A stretch of 64,000 bases of DNA, taken from positions 93,775,001 to 93,839,000 of the forward strand of contig NC_072800.1 in NCBI RefSeq assembly GCF_028583425.1, given 5' to 3'. The DNA comes from Eublepharis macularius (Eukaryota; Chordata; Lepidosauria; Squamata; Eublepharidae). Below the pieces are notes generated by a model. The model did not search any database and had not been told where the DNA came from. It was given only the letters and a program-made list of their open reading frames with translations. Made by a program: the position numbers and the translations under genes. Numbering within the stretch: position 1 is the first letter of the stretch; each line of letters opens with the position of its first letter. This document shows positions 4,101-57,300 of this stretch, one piece after another.

Positions 4101-4560
4101 ATAAATGTGCAAAATCCTCTGGGATGGGGGCAGGAGCATGGAGGGAATTGGATGAAACTGAGGAGAAAAGCTAGCTGGATGCAACCTAATACAATTTCAT
4201 TGTGACTTTTAAACACTGTAATATTTTGCTTTGTTCTTGTGTAACTGTGGAGGGAAATGTAGTGAAAGAATATGTAAGAGACATTTGAGTGCAGCAGCAC
4301 CTTAGAAACCTTTTCAGGGTATGAGCTCTCAAGAGTCAGCGCTCCCTTCTCCAGCTCTGACTCTTGAAAGCGAATAGTCTGAAAATCTTGTTCGCTTCTA
4401 AGGTGCCACTTGACTCAGATCCTTCTGTTCTACTGTAAACCAACACAGCTACCCATCTAAAACTGTAAGAGACTGGTAGTTTGAGGGTAAACTGGTAGTT
4501 TGAGGGCCTGCCCTAACACCACATGACCTTAATTCTAGAGCAAGACAGGCTACTGATTCT
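4100..4560 (+). repeat. Unclassified interspersed repeat, copy 2, with an insertion
   Basis: Same family as 1190-1510. It is interrupted at 4283-4463 by a Penelope-like terminal fragment flanked by a 10-bp duplication (TGTAAGAGAC at 4273-4282 and 4464-4473). Confidence 0.6.
4283..4463 (+). mobile_element. Penelope-like terminal fragment with target duplication
   Basis: It contains GACTCTTGAAAGCGAATAGT, TTCTAAGGTGCCACTTGACTC and AACCAACACAGCTACCCATC, all typical of the Penelope-like termini repeated through this window. The flanking 10-bp duplication is exact. Confidence 0.7.
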
Positions 4561-24300: not shown

Positions 24301-26832
24301 TGCACAGCATGATTGAAAAAGGAACCACAGGAGCCTCTCCCCATGAGAACCATCTACTGCAACTTTCCTCACTCCAAAACTTAAAAATGCCTCCCTCTCC
24401 CTTGTTTATGCGTGCAAAATGCAACACTAGGGGAGAAGCTTAAAATCTGGGAAATTCCAGTTCTAATCCCCATACTGCGATGGAAGCTCGTGGGTAGCCT
24501 TGGGCCAGTCACTCTCTCTCAGCTGCCCTACCTCACAAGGCTATCAGGATAAGCTGAAAAAGTGACAGAACCCTCTATCGGCCCTGATCTCCTTGAAGGA
24601 GTTAGCGTGACAGATCTCAGGGCACTTGACCTCTCTCAGCCTCACACACCTCACAGGCGAGGAGATAAATTTTATTTTTTAATGTAATTTATACTTCACC
24701 TTTCTTGCTGAGACTCAAGGCAGATTACACAGTGTGAACCAGTACAGTCAATTTCAAAGACATTTCAATAAACAATGAAATGGGGTCTATAAAAGCAAAT
24801 CTGCAAAGATTTCAAATCAACAGAAACCCAACACCGAGTTGAAGAAATGCAGAAACAGAGCATAAGCAATTTTGAACAACATCAAACAATATAGAACTAC
24901 TCAGTAGGATCATACCCAAAGCAACAGATAGCATCCAGTAATAAGTCTTTGGTACCTATCGCTCTACAGAGACATCCCTCACTACCTCTTTACAGTACAG
25001 CCCTCCTATCTGAGTAAAAAAAGCCCTCTTGAATAATTCATAGATCCAGAGGAGTTAGCCGTGTTAGTCTGCAGGTGCAAAATAGTAAAGAGTCCAGTAG
25101 CATATTTAAGACTAACCAACTTTATTGTAGCATAAGCTTTCAAGAACCACAGCTCTCTTCTTTTAGCTCTCTTCTTTTACTATTGACTAATTCAGTTTTG
25201 CATCGTTCCAGAAAGCCAGGAGAGTGAAGGCTTTCCTGGCCTCTTTAAGTAGGTCATTGCATGAAGGGGCCAGACCCACAAATGATGAGATTTAAAATCA
25301 TCCTACACTAGCTCCATTGGCTACCAATCAGTTACCGTGATCAGTTCAAGGTATTAGTTACATACAAAGTTCTTCAGGGCTTTGGTCCAGCATACCTATG
25401 GGTCCACCTCCCTCCCTATGTTCCTCCACGGCAGCTTCTGAACAGGGTCTCCTGCAGGTGCCAGGCTGCACACGAGTGAAGTCAGCAGAAGTCTGTACAC
25501 GGCTTTCTCTGTGGTGGCCCCTATCCTGTGGAATGACATGCCTGAGGAAGTCAGAAGAGCCCCCACTCTCCTGGCTTTTCGTAAACAATGCAAAACTGAA
25601 CTATTTGAAAAGGCTTTTTACTCAAATGGGAGGGCTGTAGTGTAGGGATGGAGTCTCAGATGCTTTGCTAATGAGTTAGGGACCATAAACTTCATCACTA
25701 TATTGCCTTACATATTATCAGCTGCTTTAAATATGTACTTCTATGTACCACCAATGCTCCATATTGTCTAATGTTAGTCCTAGAATTGATTATGTTCTGC
25801 TTCAGTATTTTTTCTACTCTGTATTGGATTCTTGCTAATATTATGTCTTTTAAACTTGTATCTATTTACCCTATGGCACTGTTTACAGAAATGTACTTGA
25901 TACTGATTGTACTAATCTCATACTGCGTAATACACCTTGAGTCTCAGTGAGAAAGGCGGACTATAAACGACATAAATAAAAGAATCATAGCGTTGGAATC
26001 ATCTAGTCCATCCCCCTGCACAATGCCGGAAATTCACAACTACCCCCCACAAACCCCCAGTGACCTCTGCTCCATGTCCACAAGATGGCAAAACGTAGTG
26101 GCTCATAGCCACTGATGGACCTTTCCATGAATTTGTCTCATCTTTTTTTTAAAAAAAACTATTGGCCTGTGGCAGTGAGTTGTGTAACTTAATTATACCG
26201 GGAATCATAGGCTTGGAAGGAACCTTCAGGGTCATCTAGTCCAACCCCCTGCACAATGCAGGAAATTCACAACTACCTCCCCCTGCAACACACACACACA
26301 CACACAGTGGCCCTTACTGCATGCCCAGAAGATGGCAAAACACCGTCAGGATCCCTAGCCGAACCGGCCTGGGGAAAACTGCTACCTAACCCCAAGGTGG
26401 GGTCAGAGCAGGGCATGGGACGTAAAACTTTCACAGCGGAACCGAGTACGGGGTTTTGCGGTGACAGCCATTAGAACATGTGGATATTGAAAAAGGAAAC
26501 CCGGAGGGACGGGCCCGAAAGTTTTGGAGCTGGATCCTAGACCGCCCCCCGCTTCTTTGGCCAGAGAGCCTGCAGGAGGGGACCCGGGCGGGGGGGGGGG
26601 GAGGCACTGAGATGTCGGCGGGGGCGGGAAGCTCGAAAGCGGCCGCGTGAGGGAAAGCAGGCGAGGGACGACGACGACGCCCGACTCACCCGCCGCAGTC
26701 CAGGCCCACGCGGGGGTCCAGGAGGGCGCAGGGGCTGGCCGCCTGCCCCGGGAAGCGCTGCTGCTGCTGGGGCACGAGAAGGAGGCGGCGGCGGTGGGAG
26801 GCGCGCAGCGGGGCGGGGGAACCGGCCTCCAT
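9661..26832 (-). CDS. CDC25A: CDC25A, M-phase inducer (dual-specificity) phosphatase, 15 coding exons
   Basis: CDC25A removes inhibitory phosphates from CDK2 and CDK1 to drive G1/S and G2/M. I followed 15 exons with GT-AG borders whose phases all agree; they sum to 1545 nt (514 aa; human is 524). The N-terminus has the cyclin-docking stretch HRRRLL (about residues 13-18). A DSG phosphodegron (74-76), the KEN box (137-139), the RLKSAP 14-3-3/Chk1 site (S174) and the C-terminal KSRTW site (T497) follow. The rhodanese-type catalytic domain carries HCEFSSER with Cys421 and Arg427. The protein ends in SRLKKL like human CDC25A, which separates it from CDC25B and CDC25C. The start ATG at 26832 sits in a good context in a CpG-rich exon. 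Oddity: exon 1 runs straight into the exon before the degron and lacks the SPVT-containing stretch of the human protein. Confidence 0.97.
11084..11195 (-). CDS. CDC25A: CDC25A coding exon 14
   Basis: Residues 431-468, [15 protein letters not shown] then [13 protein letters not shown], the most conserved block of the family. The donor is AGG|GTAGGT. Confidence 0.97.
12470..12600 (-). CDS. CDC25A: CDC25A coding exon 13 (active site)
   Basis: Residues 388-431, with the catalytic loop HCEFSSER (nucleophile Cys421, Arg427). The donor falls inside the following Met codon, AT|GTGAGT. Confidence 0.98.
13235..13333 (-). CDS. CDC25A: CDC25A coding exon 12
   Basis: Residues 355-387, including [16 protein letters not shown], the rhodanese-fold strand and loop before the active site. 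The donor is AAG|GTATGG. Confidence 0.97.
13592..13654 (-). CDS. CDC25A: CDC25A coding exon 11
   Basis: Residues 334-354 with [17 protein letters not shown], strongly conserved in CDC25 phosphatases. The donor is ATG|GTGAGT. Confidence 0.97.
13840..13935 (-). CDS. CDC25A: CDC25A coding exon 10
   Basis: Residues 302-333, containing [18 protein letters not shown], the conserved entry to the catalytic domain. The donor is AAG|GTAAGA. Confidence 0.97.
15058..15210 (-). CDS. CDC25A: CDC25A coding exon 9
   Basis: Residues 251-301 with NKRC at the start and [10 protein letters not shown] then HKRRRS, matching the basic nuclear-localisation region of human CDC25A. Phase forces the donor ACG|GTTGGT, which is a weak site; no better in-phase donor is visible nearby. 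Confidence 0.88.
15986..16063 (-). CDS. CDC25A: CDC25A coding exon 8
   Basis: Residues 225-250 with [10 protein letters not shown], identical to the human core. The donor is CAG|GTAAGA. Confidence 0.96.
16521..16780. repeat. Probable DNA-transposon-derived repeat in a CDC25A intron
   Basis: It starts AGGGTTGCCAGGTCCCCTCA and includes GATGTCACTTCCGGGAAGTG with a palindromic centre. The terminal word is shared with the inverted-repeat element at 28752-28970. Confidence 0.5.
16849..16983 (-). CDS. CDC25A: CDC25A coding exon 7
   Basis: Residues 180-224, a variable Ser/Cys-rich stretch ending in [14 protein letters not shown], which matches SDEDDGFVDLLDG of human. The acceptor GGCTTTAG was chosen over a nearby TTTCCTAG because only the former keeps phase 0 with exon 6. 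The 5' border is therefore slightly uncertain. Confidence 0.85.
18036..18155 (-). CDS. CDC25A: CDC25A coding exon 6
   Basis: Residues 140-179, beginning [11 protein letters not shown] and ending [10 protein letters not shown]174 corresponds to the Chk1/14-3-3 site of the human protein. The donor is ATG|GTATGT. Confidence 0.96.
18619..18720 (-). CDS. CDC25A: CDC25A coding exon 5
   Basis: Residues 106-139. It holds [14 protein letters not shown], a CDC25A signature, and ends exactly at the KEN degradation box. The donor is AAT|GTGAGT. Confidence 0.97.
19630..19710 (+). repeat. Interspersed repeat tail
   Basis: AAGCTGCCTCGAGCAACATT then CTGAAGAGGCAGCATAGAAA. The same words recur at about 14597-14645 and, more diverged, near 55250. 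Confidence 0.55.
19981..20017 (-). CDS. CDC25A: CDC25A coding exon 4 (37-nt microexon)
   Basis: Codes the end of codon 93 and residues 94-105 ([12 protein letters not shown]), aligning with the NPMRRIHSLP region of human CDC25A. The acceptor follows TCATTTCAG and the donor is CCG|GTAAGT. Confidence 0.9.
20625..20725 (+). repeat. Penelope-like terminal fragment
   Basis: GAGCTCTGACTCTCAAAAGC, then TTAAGGTGCTACTGGACCCA, the shared terminus family. Confidence 0.6.
21118..21535. repeat. GC-rich repeat block in a CDC25A intron, probable non-autonomous DNA transposon
   Basis: A sharply GC- and CpG-rich island with ends AGGGCCAGGCCCGGTG and CACCGGCCCTGCC that look like imperfect terminal inverted repeats. 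It includes a TGACGTCGTCG word. No gene start is associated with it. Confidence 0.45.
22458..22509 (-). CDS. CDC25A: CDC25A coding exon 3
   Basis: A 52-nt exon that completes the DSG glycine and codes CCVDSP, matching FCLDSP of human CDC25A. The donor is AC|GTATGT. Confidence 0.92.
22693..22775 (-). CDS. CDC25A: CDC25A coding exon 2
   Basis: Completes codon 48 and codes to the first base of codon 76. It contains SNLQR followed by SSDSTDS, the start of the beta-TrCP phosphodegron. The acceptor is CTACAG and the donor is G|GTGTGT. Confidence 0.93.
24261..24298. repeat. (CA)n microsatellite
   Basis: A pure CA dinucleotide run of about 18 units in CDC25A intron 1. Confidence 0.95.
24440..24650 (+). 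repeat. tRNA-derived SINE-like fragment
   Basis: CCAGTTCTAATCCCC resembles a decayed box B. It is followed by TAGCCTTGGGCCAGTCACTC and CAGCTGCCCTACCTCACAAG, the usual body of squamate tRNA SINEs. Confidence 0.6.
24660..25275 (-). repeat. L2-like LINE 3' portion (minus), interrupted by a Penelope-like copy
   Basis: This is the reverse complement of the family at 25275-25985: the tail appears as CTTGCTGAGACTCAAGGCAG near 24703. A Penelope-like element is inserted at 25041-25184. Confidence 0.65.
25041..25184 (-). mobile_element. Penelope-like element, single-arm copy
   Basis: It begins GATCCAGAGGAGTTAGCCGT and continues with AAGACTAACCAACTTTATTG and AAGCTTTCAAGAACCACAGC. Imperfect duplications GAATAATTCA (25031-25040) and GACTAATTCA (25185-25194) flank it. 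The ribozyme-like core is not intact in this copy. Confidence 0.75.
25275..25985 (+). repeat. L2-like LINE, C-terminal ORF2 region and 3' tail
   Basis: The conceptual protein resembles the LINE ORF2 end (SRTRLST-like block, then WNDMPEEV). The tail CACCTTGAGTCTCAGTGAGA, AAGGCGGACTATAAACGACA, TAAATAAA is shared with 34330-34730 and 42745-42870. Confidence 0.75.
25982..26160 (-). repeat. CR1 LINE 3' end, minus strand
   Basis: GAATCATAGCGTTGGAATCA, CTAGTCCATCCCCCTGCACA, AAGATGGCAAAACG, the reverse complement of the CR1 tail. Confidence 0.8.
26203..26395 (-). repeat. CR1 LINE 3' end, minus strand
   Basis: AATCATAGGCTTGGAAGGAA, then TCATCTAGTCCAACCCCCTG, with an internal (CA)n run at about 26287-26306. 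Confidence 0.85.
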
Positions 26833-30195: not shown

Positions 30196-30838
30196 AATAC
30201 AGAAGATCAACTTTGTTCAGGAGCACTGAGACTTATAAAGGCAGGTCACACACGAGAAAACACAACTTGCCTTAAGTCAATTATGTTGCTTTGATACTGA
30301 CAGAAAAGAAGTCTCAGTTTTTGAACTGAAAAAAAGATTCTCCTGGATTTTAGTTCTGTTGTAGGTTATACAGTACCTATAACAGCAGGACTTAGAAGTA
30401 CAACTATGATTACTATGCACCAGAGAGTACAAACTACATACCTGGAAGCCTGCTCATTATTTCCCAGGAAAAAAGTCATGGCTGGTGAATCTACATTGAA
30501 TAAATGCATTTATGGCTACTTTTGTCACTTGGGTATCCAGGATTAATCAAACATATAAAGTATGCCTAAAGTGAAAGTTTGCTCCTTCCTCAAGTACTAA
30601 CCCAACCAGTGCAGACTGAAAACTTTATTGTACCTGGATAAAACTTCTGCTTTATCTGGAACACGCAAAGTCAGAAGTCAGGTAAGTTTAAACACAAGTC
30701 TTGCAATTTTCTAATGGAAATAAGACCACCATTTGCTCTGAGCTAAGCTACAAGAGACAAATTACATGAGGAGGAGCACGTGAAGGGAGTCGCAATGTTA
30801 GCCGGGAAGCTGAGTTTTAAAAGAGATTAATCAAAAAG

Positions 30839-31105
30839 AGTCCAGTAACACCTTTAAGACTAACCAACTTTATTGTAGCATAAGCTTTCAAGAACCACAG
30901 CTCTCTTCCTCACATGCAACTTTATTGTAGCATAAGCTTTCGAGAACCACAGCTCTCTTCCTCAGATGCAACCTGACGGTTGCATCTGACGAAGAGAGAT
31001 GTGATTCTCAAAAGCTTATGCTACAATAAAGTTGGTTAGTCTTAAAGGTGCTACTGGACTCTTTGATTTTGCTACTACAGACTAACACGGCTAACTCCTC
31101 TACAC
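30839..31105. mobile_element. Palindromic Penelope-like element (copy B)
   Basis: Two inverted termini face each other: a minus arm (AAGACTAACCAACTTTATTG, present in a doubled form) and a plus arm (AATAAAGTTGGTTAGTCTTA, then AGACTAACACGGCTAACTCC). The flanks TTAAAAGAGAT and TTAAAAAGAGAT form a near-exact target duplication. Confidence 0.8.
30929..30965 (-). ncRNA. Hammerhead-ribozyme-like core in copy B
   Basis: Read on the minus strand: CTGAGGA (30959-30965), stem II GAGAG/TTCTC, GAAA, then GC-TTAT-GC. All invariant core bases are present. Activity is unproven and stem I is not obvious. Confidence 0.5.
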
Positions 31106-35620: not shown

Positions 35621-36159
35621 GCCTCAGGTTTGCTTCGTCTCCAGAGTGGCCAACCTCCAGGTGGTGGCTGGAGATCCTCCGGAATTTCAACGGCTTCCTA
35701 AGATCCCGGTCCAGTAGCACCCGACCAACTAGGTTTCCAAGGTATGCGCTTTTGAGAGCCAAAGCTCTCTCTGTCAGATGCGCGCGTGCCTATTTTGTTG
35801 TTCTTATTTAGACTTTTTGTCCGTTCTCCCCACAAGCGAGCTCAGAACGGAGCACAGCATAATGGTATGCGAAAAGATAAAAGCAATGGTAGCAATTACA
35901 GCCATGGTACAGAGCACTCAATACATCCCCATTTTTCTAAACATCAGGGCCTGTGGGGCAGGGTGGCCACCCACTTGATGACAATGCAGAGTCGGGAGGG
36001 CAACATGTTCCCCTCCCTACTCTATGGCAGGAGGCCAGTTGGAGAAACCGCCTGCCTCAACCCCCATAAGCCTGGCAGATCATCTCGGTCTTGCAAGCCT
36101 GGTGGAACGCAATAGGTACCGCCTATTATCAATAGATCTACCTTTTGTTGTATTTGAAG

Positions 36160-36270
36160 AAGGGAGTTCTGATTCTTAAAAGCTCATACCCTAGTTGGTC
36201 TTTTTAGGTACCACTGGACCCTGATCTTGCTCTTCAGTTGCAGACCAACACGGTTACCTACCTGAAATTG
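36160..36270 (+). repeat. Penelope-like terminal fragment
   Basis: GGGAGTTCTGATTCTTAAAA, TACCACTGGACCCTGATC, GACCAACACGGTTACCTACC. It lies directly before copy C. Confidence 0.6.
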
Positions 36271-36364
36271 ACCTGCAATTTTACAGAGGAGTTGGCCATG
36301 TTAGTCTGTAGTAGCAAAATCAAAAAGAGTCCAGTAGCACCTTTAAGACTAACCAATTTTATTG

Positions 36365-36401
36365 TAGCATAAGCTTTCGAGAATCAGGTTCTCTTCGTCA
36401 G
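36365..36401 (-). ncRNA. Hammerhead-ribozyme-like core, minus arm of copy C
   Basis: On the minus strand: CTGACGA (36395-36401), stem II with GAGAA/TTCTC, GAAA (36375-36378), GC-TTAT-GC. It faces the plus-arm motif. Confidence 0.6.
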
Positions 36402-36470
36402 ATGAGATATGTCTCCTTCTCTCCCCTATCTCCCCTCCTCTTCTGTATTTGACCAGTTTGGATCATGCAT

Positions 36471-36507
36471 CTGATGAAGAGAACTTGATTCTCGAAAGCT
36501 TATGCTA
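36471..36507 (+). ncRNA. Hammerhead-ribozyme-like core, plus arm of copy C
   Basis: CTGATGA (36471-36477), stem II GAGAA (36479-36483) with TTCTC (36489-36493), GAAA (36494-36497), then GC-TTAT-GC followed by TA. These match the hammerhead core with a minimal stem III, as described for Penelope-like elements. Stem I pairing is not evident in this copy. Confidence 0.6.
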
Positions 36508-37189
36508 CAATAAAATTGGTTAGTCTTAAAGGTGCTACTGGACTGTTTTTGATTTTGCAATTTTACAGAGATCTATTTCTCAGGAGAAAAAGGCAGCTTT
36601 GGAGGGTAGAGTCTGTAGCATTATAATCTGCTGAGGTCCCTCTCCCGAACTTGCCCTCTCTTGGCTCCACCCCCAGAATCTCCAGGAATTTTCCAACCTG
36701 GAGCTGGCCACCCCATCTCTTTATCACATTTTATCCCTTTCCTCCAAGGCGCTCAGGGTGCTCCTTCTTTCTGTCTATATCTGACCTCTAAGCCTCCCTC
36801 AAAATTAACATTCCATATCCACTCTGTTTTTATTCAGCTCCCCTTTTTCAGCAGCAATGAAGATTGGGACTGTATTAAGATCCTTTTAAAAGGATGAATC
36901 TGCTTGCGCCAAGATTAAGTTGATGCTTTAGTTTCCTCTCCTGATTCTGTCCCTGTAGGGATTCTGACCCTGCAAGCATTGTAAGATTGAGTGTTTTCTG
37001 CCTCTGTGGCAACGGTGAGAGCCCAGGTGGCTGACACAGCAACACCTGGTAGCTCAGGGCCCCCAAGTTTCATTGTGTGGGTTCTGGGGATAAATCTGTA
37101 GTACAAGCATAGGCAGGATCATGCACCTTCCTTGTATCCTTCTCCTTCATTAATAAGCCACTATTCCTTCCTGAAGCTGAGGGTCGCGA

Positions 37190-39330: not shown

Positions 39331-42300
39331 GTACGTTCCATAGCTCTGGAGTGAGCGAGCAAATGACTTCCCTGAGAAAAGCCAATTGCAGAGACAAGAG
39401 AAGTTGAAATAATGCACCTGATTCCCAAACCTAGACATGGCCAGAAGGGCCTGCTGAGACAAGGTCTTTCTCTTCCACGCGCCACCGGCAGAGTTCAGCA
39501 AATAGGCATTTATACGTAGCTCAAGCTTACAGTTACTCCTGTCATTTCCTGTCACAAGGATCACTTTCCAGTGTTGTGAGGGGACGTGCTGTGATGACTC
39601 CATAACCAGCACTCTCATTTTCCCTTTTTGAGCCTTAGAGATACAGGCAAGAGGTGAGACAGACCGCTTCACACGCAGCCTTCATAGGACTTGGCAGGGC
39701 TCCCCAACCGTTTTGAGCCTGTGGGCACCTTCGAATTCTGACAACCGGGAGGTGGGCGCAACCACAAGATGTCAGGGAGTCAGATTTTGTACAAGTCTAA
39801 TAGTAAATCTTCAATGTTTCAGGCAGAGCCTCTGTTTAACAAGATGCTTTTTAAAGATTAAATGAAGGCTTTAAAATATTTTCTTGCATGTACGCAGCTT
39901 ACCTTCAGTTGTCCAGTGAAGATCCTTTTGCTGTGGTGGCTGTTGCTTCCAAAGCACTGTTTTTAAAGATGTGCCCAGCCAGGGGGGGAAGCCCTGCTGA
40001 GCAAAAGGCCCTCCCGCCATTCCTGTCCACTCTCTGAAAGCACTTGGGACGCAGCGTGTAAGGGACACCACCAGGGTTATGCTATGGAGACTGCATACAG
40101 AGCCCCGTCCCAGCTGCTGGATGTCAGCTGACCCTGGGGATAGCTCTGCACAGGGAAGAGGAGGGCAAGTGGCAGCAGCTGGGGGGAGCACAGGAGAGGG
40201 ACTCGAGAGAGTGAAGCAGGCAGCTCAGGTACTGGGCGAGTCCTCCTGGAATAACTGCAATGCTGCACTCGCCGGAGATTGCCCAGGCATTGGTAGCTGG
40301 TTCGGTAGATTGTGCAGATGGAAGAAGCAAGAGGCACCCGGTAGTTTTTATTGAGGGCCGGATCTTGTAGGTCCGCTGAAGGAAGCCGGCGTGGTTTATT
40401 CAAGTGTTTCACCTCTTTAGCATAGATAAGGAGCTTGAGAAAGCAGAAGTGTTTGAAATTCAGGGCTATAAACTTTAATCTCCTTTTTTTCTGTCGGTGG
40501 AGACCAAATCTGTATTTTTTTTCTCAACCCAGTCGTGGTAGGGCAGATACCTCTTGCTCCTTTGCCTTGTTTAAACAGGCGTGGTCCTGTGACCCGTGCG
40601 AGCCAACTGGAAACTGAAAGCAGTGTGTCTCAGGTTGGAGCACTGCGGTATGGCTTGCTGCCTTTTCTCTGGGCTCCAGACACCTTGTCCGGTTCAGTGC
40701 TTGCCTGCTCCCTGGCGGGGACTGCCCCGTTGGCTGCCTGTTGTTCGTAGGCCCCGAGTCTTTGTTGATGGGAAGCTGGAAGTAAAATCATGCTACAGAC
40801 ACTGTAGTGAACAATCGAGGTTTCTTGTCTAGGTGAAGGGTGGTTGTGAGAGCGATGGGCTAAATGTGCCGGAAGTGCTTTGAGCGCTTGATGTGCCGTT
40901 GCTGCTCTCTGTGTTGCTGGCCATTGCTTCTTGCCCCAGGAGTGCAGCTGTTTGTGTGTCGGTTTGGGGGACCTGTTTGCCACCCACAGGTTTCATCCTG
41001 CAAAGAACCTCCTGCAGGCAAAGTGTTGTTTTCAGTCCTCCTCCTATCCCCAAGTAGCTCAGACTCATGCTGAAGCGAGAGGGGGCAAGAGAGGCCCAGC
41101 CCCTGGATTTGTCGAAACAAGCTTGCAGAAAGATGCAGGCAGCACCTGGCGACACTTCAGGACCCAGCAGAGGCTGAGCAGAACTTTCAGTTGTTGGAGT
41201 GGCTGGGCTTGTCCCAAATTTAGCAGCAGTATCTATTTCCCCTTTATATCCTTTAGAACCCTCGCCCCCTTCTTGGCACAGATTAGTTTATTGGAATGTT
41301 TTTGTTCTACCTTTCCTCCCAAGAAGTGTTTGCAGAAGTGGTCTTCCCAAGGCAGAGACCATAAACACTGCAATAAAACCCAGTACGCACACAAAAGAGT
41401 AACAGTGTAAAGCCAAGTGCCTTTTACCAAGCTGGCAGTCTAAAAAGAGACAGCAGACAACTGAACTCAGCGTTCTTCCAAACAAAGCTGTCTTGCAAGT
41501 CCTTCGGGCTGGAGAGGGCAGGGGCCAGTCCAGACCTCTCTTGGCAATCCCTCCTTTTCAGAGCTCTGGGGAGCAATGGCAGAGAAAGCCCTGGGACATG
41601 CCGCCACTTTTCCAGCTTCTGTGCGGGGAGGGACAGAGGAAGAATCAACGTATACAGAAGTGGCACATGGATTCTGGTTGTGTTTGACAACAAGTTTTTT
41701 AAGAATGCCATTCCTGGAGCCTTCGTTGTGACTTGTCCCCCCTCTCCCCCACCCCTAGCCAAGAGCTAACCCACCTCCTTGTTTTACCCAGCCCTCGCAG
41801 GTCTGGAATGCTGCTTTGGTGAACCTCCTGAGAAGCCTTTATTTACTGGGCCTGGAGCAGAACCAGCTGCGCTCGGTGGAGCAGGAGGTGTGGTGGCGGT
41901 TGAGGCGCTTGTCGCTCAGGCAGCTGGTCTTCTTAGCTGAGCACTTGGCTCACCCGGGGGGGTGCTGGCTGCCGAGAGACTTGCTGAGTGACCTGCTGAA
42001 GCACCTGGAGCTGCGCTGGACGGAGATTAAGGACACCCGGACTGTGGTCGTGCTGATGACTAAAGTGGGGGCGTTCTCTTCAGTCCTGATGGACCGACTG
42101 GAGGACAAGGTAAAGGCAGGGGCGCTGCCAAGTCGGCCGGGAAGGGGGTGTTGCAGGGGATTCTCTAGAGCTCGTCTGAGGGCCCCTCTTCCGGCCTGCT
42201 CGGGTAACCAGAGCATACCAGACCCACCCCCACACTCCTTGAAGGGTGCTAGTGAGGATAATTTCAGATGGGTAGCCATGTTGGCCTGCAGTAGAACAGC

Positions 42301-45300
42301 AAGAGTCGAGTCCAATAGCACCTTCAAGACCAGCAGAATTTTCACAGTTTAAGCTTTTGAAAGTCAAAGCTCCCTTCGTCAGATACTTGGGGATGCTTCT
42401 GCAACTGTGTCAAATTCATTGCTTGCCTTTTCCATGGCGAGGATCGGTCCAAACAGTTGCCACAGTGAATATCTGTAGCTCATGGGCCTCAGAGCTCTTT
42501 GTGGGCTCCGGGGATAGTTTTGCTGCACACAGGCATAGGGTGCCCCAGGGCCAAGCAGCCAACGGACAGAAGTCTCCGGAAGGAGGCAGATTTGCTGGCA
42601 GGAGGAGGAGGGTCAACATCTTGGTTTGCGCCTAAGTCCAAGAACAGCTTCGGTCAACAGTGTAAATAATTGCCTGGGAGTGGGTTTCCCCTTGCTCATG
42701 CGGACATGACCTGTTAACGCTTATGGTTCGTTTCGCCTCTGTTTCAGATATCTGCAGTCCCGACCCCTCTGCATGGTTTTGGTGTTCTTTGTGGATTCGG
42801 TGACTTACATTGTGCAGTGTGCCTTGAGTCTCAGTGAGAAAGGCAGACTACAAACAGTGTAAATGAAATTGCTCAGCCACTGAATCCGCTTCTGCTTCCT
42901 CTCCCACCTGCATCCTTGCATCAGTCCCTCTTTGACCATGAAGAGCCATCAGCTCTGTATTTTTAGGGACAGGCCAGTGTCACTGCAGACTAATAATGTA
43001 ACCTCAGACTTTGTTGTCATAAAACGTCCTGGTGGTGGAGTTTGTTTTCCCCATGCGTAATTTCCAATTTTTTTGTGCCAAACAGGGCTTAGAGTTGGCA
43101 GAGCAATTCAGTTCAGAGGATATTCGGAAAATAGCCATGGCTTTAGCACTTCAGAACCGACGTTCCATCCCTCTGCTGCGGGCCATTTCGTACCATTTGG
43201 TCCAGAAGCATTTCAGTCTTAGCACCAATGTCCTCCTCGATTTGGCTTTTGCCTACGGTAAGCAACATGGGCTGACCTCTCCCCTCAGGCCTTTGAGTCT
43301 CTCCTGTGAGTTGTTCTTTTGTCTTGAACTTGGGCTGTCGGGGGTTTATACAGGACAGCCCCCGCCAGTGGGGTTGTCCTGGGGAAGATACAGGTCCCAG
43401 GAGCAGCACGTTTCCTTCCCAGACAATTTGCCATCTGCAGTTGAGGGATTGGACAGGAGGGTTGACGGGATGGCATGTTATTAAACGACACTTCTTCACA
43501 GGAGGGTGGTTTAAAAAGATAACAGGCAGAGATGCTCCTCAGTGGGTTTGCTAATTAGATGCAATTAACAAACCCTTTGAGGAGGGATGGGGCTCTATCT
43601 TTTCAAACTACCCTCCTGTGGAAAATTGATGGAGCCTTTGGCTTTTAAACTATGTCTCCTGGCTGTCATTACGTCTCCCTCCACTTGACTGTCCTCGTGA
43701 AAGAAGTATCGTATAGAGAGACTCTGTGGGTGTCTGGCAGATGCAAGAAGTGACTGAGCAGCCTGCGAGGGTAGAAGGACCTTCTCTGCAGGCTGCCGGC
43801 CGGCCTGTTTCCCAGCAGCTCCCCCGGAGGTGGCTGATCTTCCCTCAGCCCCTGCTTGCTCTGGTTGTGAACTGGGTCAATGAGCCCTCCAGCCAGCCCA
43901 TGTACCTTCACACGGGTGGAAACGCAAGAGGAGGAGGAGGAGGACCCAGACTTGCTCTAGCGAGCTTTAAAGGAGAAGTCTGTAGCGCAGGGTACCTGGT
44001 TGGCATGCAAGTTCTGCCCTTCCATAACCATGTCAAAGTTCCAACCCGCTTTTCTGCTGGTGAGGAAAGAAGGAAGGAAGGAAGGATCCTACTTGACCGC
44101 GGTGCTGGGAAACGTGGGACCTGCAAGCATAAAAGCCACACGGGGCTCGGCTGCGGGATAGAGGAGCGTCGGACAAGATTGAGTAAAAATGCTGGCGGGA
44201 TACAATTCACAGGTTTTGATTGACTCAGCGTGGAAATAGGATTGTGGAAAAGCTCAAATACGCTGGGCTCAGGATTGGGCTTGCTAGAGTCTTGGCTTTC
44301 ATTGTTAAATCTTTTCAAAGAGTAAGCATCTTGTTCTTCCGAATGCAAGGATGGACTTGAACGCATGCGAGCAGCATCCGCTTAAAAACTCAGAAGCTAG
44401 GCGGCGGGGGAGATGGAAGAAGGATTCTAGTCACTGAGAGATGAGACTTCAGTGACGGGCCGAGCTCATGGCCCCTGCTCACGAGTAACTAGAGCGGACT
44501 AACTTTTGTACAATAGGCGAATTTGCTTGGTTTCCAAGGCAAGTACGAGTTGCAGAATTAAGTTTTCTTTGCATGGAGGAATCTGCTTAACTGTACGCTC
44601 TTGGGAGTTTAATTCTGAACCCGTTCCGAGAGCCTCCATGTAAGGCAGCCTAAGCAGTGATAACTTTGTGAAGCTACGAGGAAGACTTTCCTCTAAATTT
44701 CTGAATGGTTCAGGGCCTTTTTGTGTGTAGCAGGAGGAGGCAACCAGGCATGGTGATAACAAAAGGCTTTATCCTGAGCTTCGAGGGACAGGCTGCTCTT
44801 ATAACATCATCCCTCCTCCCCCTGAGACCTTCTTCCTCTTCCTCTCTGTTTTAAGCAGCTGCTGATTTCTTCTCTTCCTTTAAGGGAAGCTGAATTTCCA
44901 CCAGACGCAGGTGTTCCAGAAGATCGCCTCAGACCTGCACCCCCATGTTGCTGCGATGTCGCATGGGGACGTGGTGCGCTGCATCAAGTCCTTCGCTCTC
45001 CTTAAGTGGCTCAACCTGCCCCTGTTTGAGGCCTTTGCACAGGTGAGTGGTAAGGGGGTCAGGAAGCAGGAAGATGCCCTCAACGAGTTTGGGGTCACTG
45101 AACTCGGCGACGCGGCTTGAATCACTGGCAGATCAAATTGGGCCAGGGTGGGCTCCCACAGATCTCTTCCGCTAACACAGTGGCATTTCCCCCTGGCGTG
45201 AGGAACCTTCCTGGCAGTTCCTTGTGTCAGCAAGAAGTGCCACCACCAACCCTGGGGCCTTGAGATGTGCGCATGGATGATTTGCCTTCTGAGGTTGAGT

Positions 45301-48300
45301 GCAGGATGCCGGATTTGACCATTTTGGGGGACAAAATGCAAGCATGGACTATGAGTTCAATATAATGCACCAGGAACACTGTTTAAGACAAACCAAATGT
45401 GTTTCAAACCAGATCTGACCGTTCTTCAGGGGCCCCTCTGTCGTGGCCCACTCACTAGTCTGTGCGGTGGCTGGCTGTTGTTACAGGCATTTAGACAGAC
45501 CAGGTAAACTCGGTATGCAGGCTAAAGGTTGCACATTCCTTCACTTAAGGAAAACAGTTGCCATTTGACCTGTTGCATTGCCGCAGTTGTTAAAGAGTGT
45601 GTAAAGGTAGCCACAAGCAATGTTCTGCTGCTTTTTTAATATGCCCTTCGCACCTTGCTGTGATCCTCCCTACCACAATCACTTAGCGATTAGAATTGGT
45701 TCTCCCTGGAAACAAAGAGCAGCGGGGTGGTTTTTCCTTGTGGATGCTCCTACCCTGATCCTGACATTCCACTGAGCAAAGTTTATTCATTCATACATGC
45801 ATTTATTAAAATATTTATACCCCACCTTTCATTTTGGCTCAAGTTTGAGGGTTTCCTCCAATCTAAGGGGTCTGAAGAGCCACTTAAGTGGGAGGAAGGC
45901 TACTTAGAGGGTGGCTGGATCCATCCCACTGGGGCACTCCCTAACTGGAGGCACTTGGCATGCCTCTTCATTTGAAATGCTCCATGGATTGCTCCCAGCT
46001 TGGTTGGTCAACTCTTATGGCATTAGTATTTTAAAAGAATTAACTTTCTGCCAGTGCTGCACTTTAGCTAATGGGCAGAGGTGTTTCTCTCCCAAGCTTG
46101 TTACGCACATTGGCTTCTGTATAACTTTGAGCTTAAAAATGCTTCATCATCCTCTTCGTCTTTGTTTGCATTGGCTCAGTGCTCTTTCAAAGAACAGCAC
46201 ATGCAACTGACAGTTCCCCGAGAGGGCCCCCAGTGGTCCAGAGTTTCTAAAGCTTCGCCATCTGCAGGCAATGATGAAGACAAAAGTCAGCATTTAATAA
46301 ACTTTTATTTTGTTTTTATCTAAGATTTTTATTATTCAAAGTACTTTACATGTATTGCTCTGTTTGTTCCGGGATAACCCAGTGAACTAGAAGTAGTCCC
46401 CAAGATTCATCACCTGTCTTATTTTTCTCCCACCTCCAAGGGACTTGGCTCTCAAGGTCACTTGGCAAACTTCATGACCAAATAGATCCAGAGGAGTTAG
46501 CCGTGTTAGTCTGTAGTTGCAAAATAGTAGAGGCCAGTAGCACCTTTAAGACTAACCAACTTTATTGTAGCATCTTCGTCAGATGCATTGCCAGCTTTCG
46601 AGAACCACAGCTCTCTTCATCAGATGCATCTCCAGATGTATCTGACAAAGAGAGCTGTGTTTCTCAAAAGCTGACAATGCAGCTGACGAAAAGAGCTGTG
46701 GTTCTCGAAATCTTACGTTACAATAAAGTTAGTTAGTCTTGAAGATGCTACTGGACTCTTTACTATGACCAACTAGGGATCTCCCAAGTCAGACAGTCTA
46801 GCTACTGCACCCATTGGGAGCTATCACCATGACTGGACCAAATCCATAGTATGGCTCCTTGAGCTTTGCTCCCGGTCCCACACCTGTTTGTTGTGCCAGG
46901 TGATGCTACCTTTGGGTGCTTAATTTCTGCTCTAATGCAGCTGAGGTGGGGACCTCTCCTTCCTGATTGTGCCGCTACCTTCCCATAGAAATTAAATGTA
47001 TGCCATTGACTTCTAGGGATTGGGGGCACAGGTGTGTGGGGGGGTATCCTTTCCTGTTCAGACCCTGTTTAACTGGCTGGATTTTTCCCCCCAGCCTGTT
47101 CTTGAGATAATTGTAAGTCTTCTGTAGTCTGCTGGGGTTTAAAACATTTTATATTGCTCTTTTTGGCAGCGCTCAAGATGATACCAGATTGGTTGTAGCT
47201 GTCATGTGGACTTTATATTCACTTGCTATGTGAATAGGCTTGGATGCAAAAGCAATGCATAGAACCTGGAAACTAAGCTATCTCTTTCTTCCTCCCCAGT
47301 ACACAGTGGACAAGGCCGACAGATTGAACCCCGTCCATCTTAGCAATGTTGTCCTCGCGTTTGCTCGCCTGAACTTCCAGCCCAGCTGTGGAGAGGCCTT
47401 CTTCAGTGCGGTAGTCCCCTTCTTCATCCTGCAGGGGGAGCTGTGGCTGTGCTTAGTGTTGGGGGTGGCTTCTGTACCCCTTGGTCCTGAGTAGGGGTGT
47501 GCGCTTCAGGTTTCCGATTCAGATAGATTCGGTATTCCCGAATCAGCCCCAGCATTGCTGAGCCGATTCGGAAATACCAAAGCAAAGCTTTCTGAAGTGC
47601 GTCAGAAAGCTGTGGGTAGAGCAGCAACAGCTGCAGCACTTTTTTTGCTACTTGCAAATGGCAAGAAAAGTGCTGCCTTCAAGCTTCCCGCCACTTAGAT
47701 AAACCCGAAACAGGAAACCCAAATCTTTTTTGGGTACAAACCCGTAGTCCCCTGAGCAGGTTCTGCTTTATTGTTACTATAGTGTTGTAACCAGCCCTGA
47801 GCCCACTTGCGGGGAGGGCAGGTAAAAATCAAATACATTAAATGACTGTGGTAGGCTAGAGGGACCTCCTTGTAACAGTTGCTGGGTTCCCTTCCTCAGA
47901 TCCACAAGCATCTGGATGATGCCCTCGACACCCTGGATCCCTACCTGCTGGTGGACCTGGTGTGGTCGCTGTGCGTGCTGCAGCAGGTGAAGGCTGCCCA
48001 CCTGCAAAAAGTGCTGGCTCCAGAGTTTTGCGCTCGCTTCTTAGGTATAAGCAGGCGATGCACCAAAGGCACGGGGTGGGGGTGGGGGGGGAGTGTTCCT
48101 TGGGTGCAGACGAGGAGCTTCCTTGGCCAGGGATTGGTCACTGTGAAGGCTCAGTGCCGTCAGCTCTTCTCCCAGCAGGCAGCTGGAATCAGGATCAGCC
48201 ACTAGATGGCAGTGCCGCAAAGGAAATGGAGGGGCGGGCCAGTTGGAAGGCCTTGGTTCCGAAAGAGAAGCTTGAGGCCCATGTTGACCACCAGTTTTCC

Positions 48301-51300: not shown

Positions 51301-54300
51301 CAGAGCCAGACCCCGTTCAGGAGCTCCAGCCATGCGCCCTTCAAAAAAGAGTGGCATGAGAACAGCACCCCTGGGAAAGGCTTCTCCAGAGTGGCTCCCC
51401 CCACCCTCCACAGCTGTGGCGATTCCTCTCTACACAAGCAGCAACTCCCGTTTTCAAGGGTCAGAGTAGCGCACGTGTCCCCTTGCCAACCAAGTCCACA
51501 CCTCCCTGGGAAGGCTTCTCTTATTCTTCAAGCCAGAGGGTTCTGGGAGCATGCTAAAGGCCGGGGGGCGGAGGCAGAGAAACGTTCTGGGTCTCTTCCT
51601 AACCCCCCCCCCACCACCACCAGTGTATTCAACAGGATGCTAGCCTACGATGGTGGGTTTAATTCCCTGCCGTTGTAGGCCAGCACTCCATTTTCCATGG
51701 TGGCCAACCAGAAAGGTACTTACGCGGATGCACGTAGCTGCATTATATCAAGTCAACCTACTGGTCTGTCTGGCTTCACGGGGTCTGGTAGAAGAGGCCT
51801 GGATCCTGGGACCTGCTGTGTCCTGTGGAAACAAGGGTCCGCCTGCAAAGCATGCGTCTAGCAGAATTAATAGAAACATAGAGCTGGAAGGGTCTCCAAG
51901 GGTGATCTAATCCAGCCCCCTGCACAGTGCAGAAAATTCTCAGCTGTCCACCCTCACCTCCCCCATTAACCCTTGTTCTATGCCCAGAGGAAGGCAGAAA
52001 ACCTCCAGGATCTCTGGCCCAGAGGAAAATTCCTTCCTGACTCCCAACTGGCAACCGGCAGTACCCTGGGCATGTGCGAAAGGACCACGGGAGCCCAGCA
52101 CCGGCTCATCCCCTCATGCTCTCCCCCCACCCCCCCGATCTGTGTACATTCACATTAAATCAGCATAGCTGTCAGGTGACTGTCGAGCCTCTCCTTAAAT
52201 ACCTCCAAGGCTGCTCAGGATGCAAGAGGCCTCGGGGGGGGGGGGGTGGCAGGGAGCGACCCAGCGCTGCTGACTGCGGCTGCCTCTTTCCCTGGCCCTT
52301 CGTTGCAGGCTCGCCTTCCTGAGGTGGGAGTTCCCAAACTTCAGCAACCGCAGCAAAGACCTGCTGGGGCGGTTTGCCATGGCCCGGCGGCACCTTCAAG
52401 TTGCTGGATTCTTGCTTGTTGATGTGAGTAACTGTGCACTGCTGTGATACACTGCTCTGTGTGTGTATGTGTGTGCTGTACAAGTACAGGTCCTGGTACT
52501 TAGGGGAGAGCACTGTTGTGCCTGACATTTCAGGCTTTTTTAAACAAGAGCTGCTAGCCCTTATGGTGCCTACATGTAGGCAAATAATAAAGAGTCCGGT
52601 AGCACCTTTAAGATTAACCAACTTACTTGTAGCATAAGCTTTTGAGAACCACAGTTCTCTTCGTCAGATGCGTCATCAGCTTTCAGGAACCACAGCTCTC
52701 TTCGTCAGATGCATCTGACAAAGAGAGCTGTGGTTCTCAAAAGTTTATGCTACAAATAAGTTGGTTAGTCTTAAATATGATACTGGACTCTTTACTATTT
52801 GGCGACTACAGACTGACACGGCTAACTCCTCTGGATCTATGTGCATGTAGGCAGTACCCTTGTGATTTCTTCAGGCTGAGAAGGATCCCTGGTGCCCTGG
52901 CTAGAACACAGCTCAGTCCTGAAGTTTATAGAAGTGCATTAATTTATGTAAAAATTTAAAAGCACTTGCAGATTTAATTTTTATAATTTGTGCAGGATGA
53001 AGAATTCAACCTTTTTAATTTCTGTAGTTTCAGTGTCCTGGCTGATGGAACACCCAAGTCATCGAAGGTTGAATTCTTCAACCTGTACAAATTATGAAAA
53101 TTAAACAAAGCACTTAAAATTTACATAATTTTTATCCTGCCTTCTTTGAAGGTGCTTACTTCCCTGTTTTACCCTCACAACCACCTTGTGAAGTAGGTTA
53201 GGCTTAAAGACTGACTTGCCCAAGATCACTCAGCAAGTTTTCTGGCAGAGCAGGGATTTGAACCACGCTGCCATCGTCGTCCGGGGATAAACACACTTCC
53301 ACTGGAACAATCCCCTTTGGGCGTGTGCCAGGAAAATGAGATGAAAATCACTCCACACCATCAAGACCGGCATGTGGAGACTCCTGGCCAGATCCGGCAC
53401 CCAGTGGCCGTACTCAGTCTCTGCAGTGGCCAGCCCGGGGGGACGGTGGCAGCTCTGGCCAAGGGCTTTGACTTGGGGGGGGGCAGCCTTCCACCTTCCT
53501 CTCTTGCACTGAGCCTTCAGCTAAGTTTGTACCACTGACCAAGGCGCAGGGGCGCCCTGTAGTTTGGAAATCAGCTAGCCTGTTGCCTCTGAAGCTCCCA
53601 CTTGCTTCCTTGCTTGACGAATGTCTGTGTATCGGGACTTGTCAGAGTGCTCCATATGCCCCCCCTGCCCTCTAGGTTCTTTGCCAAAGTTGGGTGTCTC
53701 CAAAATGCCCCCAAATGCAAGAGGGCAGCTAGCCCAGCCTGACTGGCCCCAGGAGCCCCAAATGTGCCTCTTCACAGGATGCAACTGCTCTGTGCCTGAC
53801 CAGGAAGAGGGAAAGGACGGTGGGGCCCTACTCCAGGCCACCTAACCCCGTTCCAAGCAGCCCCCCCCCTTTCTGGGTAGCAACGGGCACCATTTGCACC
53901 CAGTCCTGGAGGTGCCGTAGTGTGGAGAGGGACGTTCCTTGGAGCCCTTGGCCGTTCCCGCTCTGCCTGGCGTCAGGCTGCCTGCCCAGGGATTGGGGGA
54001 GGGGCTGCATTTGAGCAGAGTCATTCATTATTTAGCTCTCAAAAGTAATTATAGCTCTTCAGTCATCCTCAGCACCCTGCTCTGCTCTCTAGCAACTAGG
54101 AGGGGGTGAGAGCCATGGCACCGTTAGAAAACCCCCATTTGAGTCGGAGGGGAGGGCTGACTCCTTAGAAGGCACCTGCCAAGACACGCTTGGGCTCCCA
54201 GGCTGTAGCTGTGCTGCCTTCCCTGGGCCTGTGTGTGTTTTCCTCTCCTGCTGCCTTTCGTAGCTAGATCACCTTGATGGAAGGGGACATGAGATATTAC

Positions 54301-57300
54301 AGACTGTGTGTATTTCACCCAGGCACAGAAAAGCTGAACAGTTTGTTTTAAGAAAAGAGCATGCTTCTTGTTTTAACCAGGGGGTGGACACTGCCTGGAG
54401 AAATTTCACGAGCCAGAATGGGTGTGGTTGAATCAAGTTTCCCAGTGTTGGGGCCCAATACAGCTCCAAACCCTTTTAGATGTAGAATAATGCAAAATAG
54501 CTAGATGATGCAAAATAGCTAGATAGATGGGTGTAATTGATAGGAGTTTCCTTTCTCAGCAGAGAGCACACTTCACTCTTATAGCAAAGAGACCAGTAGC
54601 ACCTTTAAGACTAACCAACGTTACTGTAGCATAAGCTTTCAAGATGCATCTGATGAAGAGAGCTGTGGTTCTCCAAAGGTTATGCTACAATAACATTGCA
54701 TCTGATGAAGAGAGCTGTGGTTCTTGAAAGTTTATGCTACAATAAAGCTGGTTAGTCTTAAAGGTGCTCCTGGACTCTTTTACTATTTTGCAACTACAGA
54801 CTAACTCGGCTAACTCTTCTCCACTCTTATGTGCTTCAGTCTGAAGGCGCAGTAGGAGATTCTGGGGGGGGGGGGAGAGCAGGGAGCGTGGCTGCTTTCG
54901 ACCTGAGTCCCTGTAGCCCCCGTCAGCAGTTAGCTGAGAAGAAGGGAGGAGATTCCTTTTTGTTTCCCATCTTGCTGTTCCCTATTTTTCGAGTATGTTA
55001 TCATCCCACCCCTTCTTCCAGCAAGTTTAGAGCAGCGTGTATAGTTCTTCCTCATTTTAGCTTCAGTTTAGGCGGAGGGGGAGTGACCACCCCAATGCCA
55101 GCCATGCCAGCGAGCTTCCCAGGCTGCGCTGGGGTCTGAACCGGCAACTCCCAGAGCCTAGGCTGGCACTGTAACCACTACCCCACACTGCCTGTTAATT
55201 GCTGGTGGGAGAGCAGCAGGAGCACTGCCTCCACTCCCTCCCGTTACTTTGAAGAGCGTACCCTGAAGAGGCGGCATAGGGATAATAATCGGGTTGTACA
55301 AAATATTCTTGACTTCCAGGTCAAAAATCAAGAGTGATTTTGATGGAGCAAAAACATTTTCCCTTAAAATAGCTGTGCTATGTAAATATTCTTTGGTTTT
55401 GTGTGTTAACCATTTGTCCTTCCACCTGGATTAGTCACATGGGGGGGCTTACAACATAAAAACACGAAAAGCAAAACTTTAAAAGATATTAATTGAAATC
55501 CAGCATTAAAAACGCACCTCAGCATAAGAACAGACCACCAAAAGCCTAAAACAGCAGTTTCCATACTAAAATACTGTTAGAAGGTGGTTAAAAGCCTGAG
55601 TGAATAGAAATTTGTCCACTTGGGGATTATGTAGCGGAGGGGAAAATGTCGCCACGCTGCGTGGCCGACCAGATCAGTGTGCGTGGGGTGTGTGCGTGAG
55701 TGACGGGGCAGTGCGTTCTGGGTGAGTCACACGGGGGATGCTGCCTTGTCACAGGTTAGAGTGACTGGGAAAATGTTGCCGTGCTGCATCATGCAGCAGA
55801 TTTGGTAAAGTGACCGCATCCGAAGGGCTCCCGCTGGCACAGCCCCAAGCCCTGTTTCACACAGTGCCTCTTATCTGTATGCCTTGGGAAGGCCTGGGCC
55901 TGAGGCTGCGGAGGCTGACGCCTGCCCCTGCCCCGCAGAGACGCTCAGCATTCCAACCTTCACCTGCTTGGCTTTGCATCATTTGGTGGCGGTCTAACTT
56001 CCCTGTTCATCTCCAGGGCCCTGACCCTCCTGTCGTGTCACGTCCTGTGGTTGCTGCCTCTGAGGCCGTGATTGGTCTAGTCACCTGCTCTTGCAACACA
56101 CCCTGGCTCATAGGGGGGGTTTCAGAGGAAAACTGTGCTCCAGGCATGCTCCTGTCTGTCCTGTCAGTCACTTTTTATCCTGCCCTTCCTTGACAAAGCA
56201 CGCGGGTGGAGCACCTGGCTCCCTCTCTCTGGTTTTATCTTTTTGCCAGTTCCGTAAGGTGGGTTAGGCTGAGTCTCTCTAGTCTGACACACTCCCACTC
56301 ACAGGTCTGCCTCACTGGTGTTTGCCCCCTGGAGGGCAGGAGGTCCTCTTGGAAAGCATGATAATCAGACTTCTTTGTATTTTAAGCTTATTTATACGGT
56401 CAAATGTCAGAGGTTATCACAGCATGGTCAACCCTACAGAAAATCCCATTTTTACCTGAACCAGGAATTCCATAGTGCTTTCATTCATTTCTCCAGAAGG
56501 AGTTAGCCGTGTTAGTCTGCAGTCACAAAATAGTAAAGAGTCCAATAGCACCTTTAAGACTAACTTTATTGTAACAAGCTTTCAAGAACCACAGCTCTCT
56601 TCTTCAGATGACGATGCGTCTGACGAAGAGAGCTGCGGTTCTCGAAAGCTTATGCTACAATCAAGTTGGTTAATCTTAAAGGTGCTACTGGACTCTTTAC
56701 TACCATTCATTTCTGTTGTCTTCGGGATCTCTTAGAGGGCCCACGTGCACACAGAGGGGCAGCACGTGGCTTTGGGATTTAGCTTGGCTTTTGACTGCTC
56801 GCTGCCCATTGGAAAAATAGCATCTCAGGAGGTTTGCCTGGTGCTTATCTTCCTTGCGTGTTTGTGATGCATGGAATAGTTTGTTGGGAAGTTATTCTAG
56901 GACCCTGTGCTGTGAAAGGGTACGGATGCTGCATTGTGTGAGGCTGCTGAAGAGCTCGGCTCTTCCCTCCACCCAGCAAAAGTGTGAGCAGAGCAGAGCC
57001 ATTCCTGAAGCTGCGGCAAGCGTGGGGCCTCTGCCTTCTGGCATCACGGAGCCGTCGAGGCCGTCTCTCTTCTCTCACGGCAAGAATGGGGCCGGGGACA
57101 GTCGACCTTTCCAGATTCAAAGGGTGGTGGGCATCGGGCAACTTCTGCATGGCAGACGGCCGCGTTTCCAGTCCAGGGGGCCCAGTCTCTGTTGCTCCAG
57201 CTTGGGGCTGAGCTGCTTGCAGTAACTGGGTTTCCCACGCCTGCCAGTCCTCTGAACGGGTCGTGTTTGGTTGGGCTTTTATTCTTCCAGGTACCGACCA

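Follow-up and report, generated by a model that had tools for sequence, protein, structure and literature searches.

Minimal hammerhead ribozymes of Penelope-like elements were reportedly described by Cervera and De la Pena in 2014. In PAc, a Penelope/Poseidon element of Anolis carolinensis, two adjacent internal positions serve as starts of reverse transcription and delimit the tail, and each of the two target strands undergoes cleavage and extension (PMC11167929). The PAc hammerhead needs protein in vitro and is dispensable for insertion (PMC11167929). Excerpts of a study on the rotifer Adineta vaga describe head-to-head inverted pseudo-LTRs as typical of its Penelope elements, with a 31-bp tail optional on one of them and 8-10 bp duplications, and stress the palindromes at the inverted junction (PMC3846280). 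Hammerheads of Penelope-like elements usually lack helix III, according to part of PMC6155905, and part of PMC7229834 describes animal retrozymes as spreading via circular RNAs. Here, we analyzed short palindromic insertions with hammerhead-like motifs in a 64-kb window (the whole stretch of gecko DNA under study) and their relatives across the 2.24-Gb genome. Element coordinates count the C of CTGATGA as 0, and features of the window are collected in Table 1.

Table 1. Palindromes, arms and hammerhead-like motifs in the 64-kb window
Feature	Coordinates	Strand	Description
Older palindrome H	insert 4283..4463	.	profile matches; duplication by eye
Copy A, tailed arm	25040..25162	-	~12-nt tailless stub past 5' end, stub by eye
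Copy B	30828..31105	.	left arm tailless with second hammerhead unit; right arm tailed
Target duplication of C, left	36274..36288	.	exact 15-nt repeat
Copy C, whole insert	36289..36555	.	inverted arms and flanking duplication
C tailed arm	36289..36404	-	element about -3 to +117, mapping to L038
Hammerhead-like motif, C tailed arm	36367..36405	-	read from sequence
C tailless arm with 63-nt 'spacer'	36403..36555	+	element about -68 to +87, mapping to L038
Hammerhead-like motif, C tailless arm	36467..36505	+	GCAT-CTGATGA-A-stem II-GAAA-GCTT^ATGC; sequence, fold, covariation
Target duplication of C, right	36556..36570	.	exact 15-nt repeat
Copy D	46486..46764	.	left arm tailed; right arm tailless
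Copy E	52583..52843	.	left arm tailless; right arm tailed
Copy F	54583..54818	.	left arm tailless; right arm tailed with second hammerhead unit
Copy G	56493..56703	.	left arm tailed; right arm tailless

Inverted ends of an endonuclease-bearing Penelope-like element

Copy C is a head-to-head inverted pair of one terminus inside a perfect 15-bp target duplication, as the initial annotation of this DNA had described it. Its arms (36314-36404 and 36468-36558) show 97% complementarity across 91 nt. The exact direct repeat TGCAATTTTACAGAG gives a duplication score of 15, whereas the 99th percentile for 300 random place pairs in the window is 9. The arms are unequal: the left one carries a tail, the right one stops short of it. 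The central 63-nt spacer is the right arm's own element sequence upstream of the hammerhead, with up to 100% identity to long copies. A genome-wide search with C as query (40 of 2651 candidates scored) returned, among the scored matches, many that comprised only the spacer and a single arm, at 95-99% identity. A 135-nt query assembled from words highly frequent in this genome gave no matches.

These ends belong to an endonuclease-bearing Penelope-like element. Locus L038 contains an open frame of 612 aa, truncated at the border of the stretch examined, with RVT_1 (E 7.1e-13) and GIY-YIG (E 5.7e-8) matches. About 330 nt downstream of its end come the hammerhead and tail found in the palindromes, and this linkage bears out the Penelope-like assignment first made from the window alone. 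The family traits agree: a tail on one terminal repeat of the inverted pair (25/25 loci) and a target-site duplication around the insert (score ≥9 in most palindromes). L038 is a rearranged copy, since part of its GIY-YIG coding stretch is duplicated at element -2165 to -2048, before the reverse transcriptase frame. An older hammerhead palindrome is also built into its 3' untranslated part (about -273 to -220), and the arms of L064 and L065 join at this internal palindrome.

The six palindromes B-G reported earlier for the 64 kb were all found again, and the older palindrome H, which had been missed, makes a seventh (profile matches 4259-4356(-) and 4353-4458(+); 10-bp duplication TGTAAGAGAC by eye). 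Copy A keeps its tailed arm and an imperfect 9-bp duplication readable by eye; its description as a single-arm copy does not hold strictly, given the inverted tailless stub. The extra tandem hammerhead units in B and F (30917-30973 and 54642-54694) lie ~52 nt apart with a short match at the join and look like reverse transcriptase slippage. Besides H, the profile search detected several old arms. Two of them adjoin C, at 35700-35782 (-) and 36147-36268 (+, tailed), and may form a large decayed palindrome over 35700-36268; in 42261-42534, a further old Penelope arm (-) comes to within ~10 nt of SNORA5 (+, match at 42400-42534, 71.6 bits), a match that identifies the DNA as vertebrate. The window is denser in arms than eight chosen, evenly rounded 10-kb stretches, which yielded four arms besides a single old palindrome (L058).

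A minimal hammerhead-like motif in both arms

The initial annotation had seen CUGANGA, a 5-bp stem II, GAAA and a 2-bp stem III in both arms of C. The first three are present in both, the first as CTGAYGA; the stem III is not backed by covariation. Across 53 distinct units, the first C of the core is kept in 50, G in 51 and the second A of GAAA in 53/53, while A replaces the G of CUGANGA in 15 units and that of GAAA in 9. Pairing in stem II is maintained across substitutions: its paired share and double changes were reached by 0/500 shuffles, which is not a probability because the 53 units are related, and its number of pair types was matched by 206/500. For stem I (GCAU/AUGC) the signal is marginal, as 33 and 36 of 500 shuffles reached the observed covariation, again over 53 related units. 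Helix III is present as letters (GC...GC), and 469/500 shuffles over the 53 units pair as well. Minimum-energy folding of the C arm gives stem I and stem II, with an unremarkable energy (z -0.39). Judged from these letters, folds and covariation, the motif is a predicted minimal hammerhead without helix III, with a putative cut at GCU(U/C)^AUGC; the base at this site is U in 44/53 units and C in 8/53. The predicted cut falls at 36501/36502 in the tailless arm of C, and 5' truncation leaves the tailed-arm motif a stem I of 3 bp.

Rfam hammerhead models recovered none of the cores proposed earlier, either at gathering thresholds in the window or at E ≤10 in 36200-36700. This negative is weak evidence, since forms without helix III may be missed. 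MIR1435 and the other Rfam matches over C were below gathering. Self-cleavage had been suggested for the transcript of each strand; in the predicted fold, the transcript of a palindrome is a single extended hairpin (-153.8 kcal/mol, z -20), which would hide both cores. Outside this genome, the pattern GAAAGCTTATGCTNNAATAAA had 0 matches in viral contigs and occurred in 8 stretches of bacterial genomes, probably by chance.

Junctions, tail state and a proposed insertion mechanism

The palindrome had first been viewed as a distinct non-autonomous element, conserved and mobilised as a unit. Duplications do flank whole palindromes, and ~12 genome copies match C nearly end to end (86-91%), yet shared arms and spacer suffice for alignment along C's length, lone arms with the same sequence are common (43/74 loci) and arm lengths vary widely. 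All 39 central junctions compared differ, none being identical in any pair, and with a shared junction in 0 of 39 we rejected this reading, which we regard as very improbable. Exact strings common to junction windows reached at most 21 nt and were confined to one arm.

Over the loci mapped, arm 5' ends range from about +40 to about -966. The tailed/tailless 5' ends are -3/-68 in C and, elsewhere, -24/-62, -20/-42, -102/-122, -238/-966 and -852/-79. Single stop points recur among tailed arms (-24 in L017 and L020; -20 in L022, L024 and L029; near -37 in L088 and L091; near -162 in L051, L102 and L114) and may mark pauses on the RNA. The two stop points of a copy never recur together, and the tailless arms of these loci do not stop at common points. 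Arms mostly join with 0-7 nt of overlap or gaps of up to 22 nt, the outliers being L028 (14-nt overlap) and L098 (~84 nt of filler). The filler (about 634-717 of L098) resembles, by eye, the start of the Anolis Poseidon RNA printed in PMC11167929, as if reverse transcription had switched to the RNA of another Penelope element. At L026, the tailed arm starts at position 582, the base after the predicted ribozyme cut, a single case to which we attach no weight.

Duplication scores of at least 9, reached by about 1% of random places, were found for 28/31 (all but L023, L049 and L058), 9/9 and 4/4 palindromes, and the duplications enclose the whole insert in 41/44 scored. Whole-insert duplications and differing junctions together indicate that each palindrome is one event, as had been proposed for C, and that the events are independent. 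Chance neighbours or assembly artefacts, for which we found no support, are made extremely implausible by these duplications and by the identical orientation and end types of all 25 two-arm loci described below.

Tail state was counted with two tail-blind queries spanning element -62 to +78, so that the tail does not affect an arm's score (40 of 931 and 40 of 1708 places scored; 38 + 36 loci read). They gave 12 + 13 = 25 two-arm inverted loci, head to head in 25/25, and exactly one arm carried the ~40-nt tail in 25/25. If tails were chosen independently at the rate of lone arms (20 tailed, 23 tailless), 25/25 mixed pairs would have a probability of 2.6e-8. Ends lie at about +113 to +124 for tailed arms and at +75 to +94 for most tailless ones; L065 (+68), L101 (+58) and L029 (+26) have shorter tailless arms. 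Here 'tailless' denotes an end before +105, and arms below 85% identity or with E >1e-4 were left out. Two direct pairs of tailed arms (L074, L083) were set apart, and three-arm loci (L037, L040, L043, L073) are outside the 25, L043 being kept in the order counts. Also outside the statistic are L017-L029, chosen by likeness to C (mixed pairs in 12/13; L029 shows one arm), and L058, L064 and L065, which are mixed pairs too, the latter two found by a tail-containing query. L036, matched by the C query and not by the tail-blind one, is outside the 38-locus set. Within the window, copies B-H have one tailed and one tailless arm in 7/7.

The locus sets are biased towards young copies similar to L038 or L028. 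Flanks were read over ~2 kb for L030-L054, ~0.9 kb on the 5' side for L066-L079 (less for L076) and 0.55 kb for L080-L115, where five stretches were extended after a cut-off partner or second arm was seen. Duplications at a score ≥9 flank lone arms of both kinds (tailed L035, L069, L084 and L110; tailless L041, L066, L103, L105 and L108), in 5/16 and 5/19 cases, the latter five including direct pair L074. Since most lone arms tested have no duplication at this score, part of them may have partners beyond the stretch read.

The pairing, taken with the published biochemistry of the Anolis relative, suggests that an inverted insertion is built from two cDNAs, each begun at a start site of its own. 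We consider it likely that the palindromes are one-off Penelope-like insertions, shortened at both 5' ends, made by such a two-cDNA mechanism. The element protein would cut the two target strands with a stagger of about a dozen bases, and each freed 3' end would prime reverse transcription on element RNA. One cDNA would start at the outer site and keep the ~40-nt tail; the other would start at the inner site and lose it. Both would halt at differing 5' points, their ends would be joined head to head with little homology, and fill-in would create the target duplication. Arms running upstream of the hammerhead would have been copied from RNA uncut there. We infer the joining step, as well as the origin of both cDNAs from one RNA or from one asymmetric dimer or complex.

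Self-priming, in which one cDNA or antisense RNA folds back and copies itself, was proposed for rotifer Penelope elements in excerpts of PMC3846280. It accommodates the head-to-head orientation, the resemblance that arms of a locus show on average, the palindromic look (by eye) of the B and E centres, and the joining of the L064 and L065 arms in the element's internal palindrome. However, the tail is on one arm, yet the tailless arm extends >10 nt further 5' than the tailed one in 16/26 pairs; in these, each arm contains sequence absent from its partner and cannot have been copied straight from it. The remaining 10/26 pairs are compatible with fold-back copying, and the discordant arms of L019 and L039 speak against it; overall, we judge self-priming improbable.

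Within the two-cDNA mechanism, the order and likeness of the arms bear on whether one RNA or two served as template. The tailless arm is further 5' in 18/26 pairs (p 0.08), or 23/32 (p 0.02) with window copies added; order in L032 and the window copies was judged by eye, with D (a tie) and A left out. An earlier count of 17/21 (p 0.007) fell to this 18/26 once five more pairs were included, and we dropped 5'-end order as proof of an enzyme convoy. A head start of ~40 nt might by itself account for the remaining tendency, and 5' ends of the two arms were not significantly correlated (near-equal in 6/21, p 0.15). Arms within a locus are more alike than shuffled pairs (0.0111 vs 0.0160, p 5e-5, 25 loci), a result that fits 'same RNA' and 'same subfamily at the same time' equally. 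L022 has two bases in both arms seen at no other of the 25 loci, and L017 and L020 share rare variants between arms (by eye). L019 and L039 each have four non-CpG differences between arms, and for 9/20 tailed arms a tailless arm from a different locus is strictly closer than their own partner (CpG sites kept). The evidence is mixed, and we place one RNA and two RNAs at nearly even chances.

A concerted reaction is one candidate: an asymmetric complex on a single RNA would use the outer and inner starts, each for a different target strand, making the tailed/tailless pairing obligate, with the inner enzyme tending to run ahead. Two enzymes on one RNA would keep the tailless arm always ahead, and 18/26 counts against this. 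In vitro, PAc start-site use did not differ between top and bottom strands (PMC11167929), which counts against paired starts. We hold the concerted reaction tentatively, at somewhat below even chances. Separate reverse transcriptions of two RNAs by an asymmetric dimer, always with one outer and one inner start, would explain the strict pairing, the weak 5'-end order and correlation, and the discordant arms of L019 and L039; the Anolis protein is predicted to dimerise (PMC11167929). Against two RNAs stand the average within-locus likeness and the rare variants common to both arms in L017, L020 and L022, and we regard it as possible, if rather doubtful.

Comparison with described elements

The origin of Penelope inverted terminal repeats was ascribed to self-priming in a 2013 suggestion (excerpts of PMC3846280), and two start sites were reported in 2024 (PMC11167929). 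The strict tailed/tailless pairing joins the inverted repeats of the self-priming era with the two-start-site finding. A tail-state count is usable in any genome, and the pairing could also be assayed with purified Anolis enzyme. What is new here is the count of one tailed and one tailless arm per inverted insertion; our search, mainly of open-access literature and thus a weak negative, found no paper with per-insertion tail-state counts.

The element adds a new member to a known architecture. Inverted ends that face head to head, one of them tailed, are an already-known Penelope trait, as the excerpts of PMC3846280 document for Adineta vaga, whose elements share these features and the target duplications. 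The rotifer elements are typically full-length in that account, whereas the gecko inserts are shortened. Like the minimal Penelope-like hammerheads in part of PMC6155905, the predicted motif has a core without helix III; it differs in its cut-site base, U in most units and C in few. Animal retrozymes, as presented in part of PMC7229834, resemble the palindromes in being short hammerhead-bearing retroelements with no coding sequence, whereas the palindromes are truncated ends of a coding element. PAc shares with this element the reverse transcriptase and GIY-YIG domains, a hammerhead in the terminal repeat and a tail between two start sites (PMC11167929). By our reading, both predicted hammerheads have a layout without helix III, GAAA-CG-UC^AGG in PAc RNA (PMC11167929) and GAAA-GC-UU^AUGC here. 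The two differ in sequence, and the present element is represented by genomic inverted pairs in which start-site pairing was counted per insertion.
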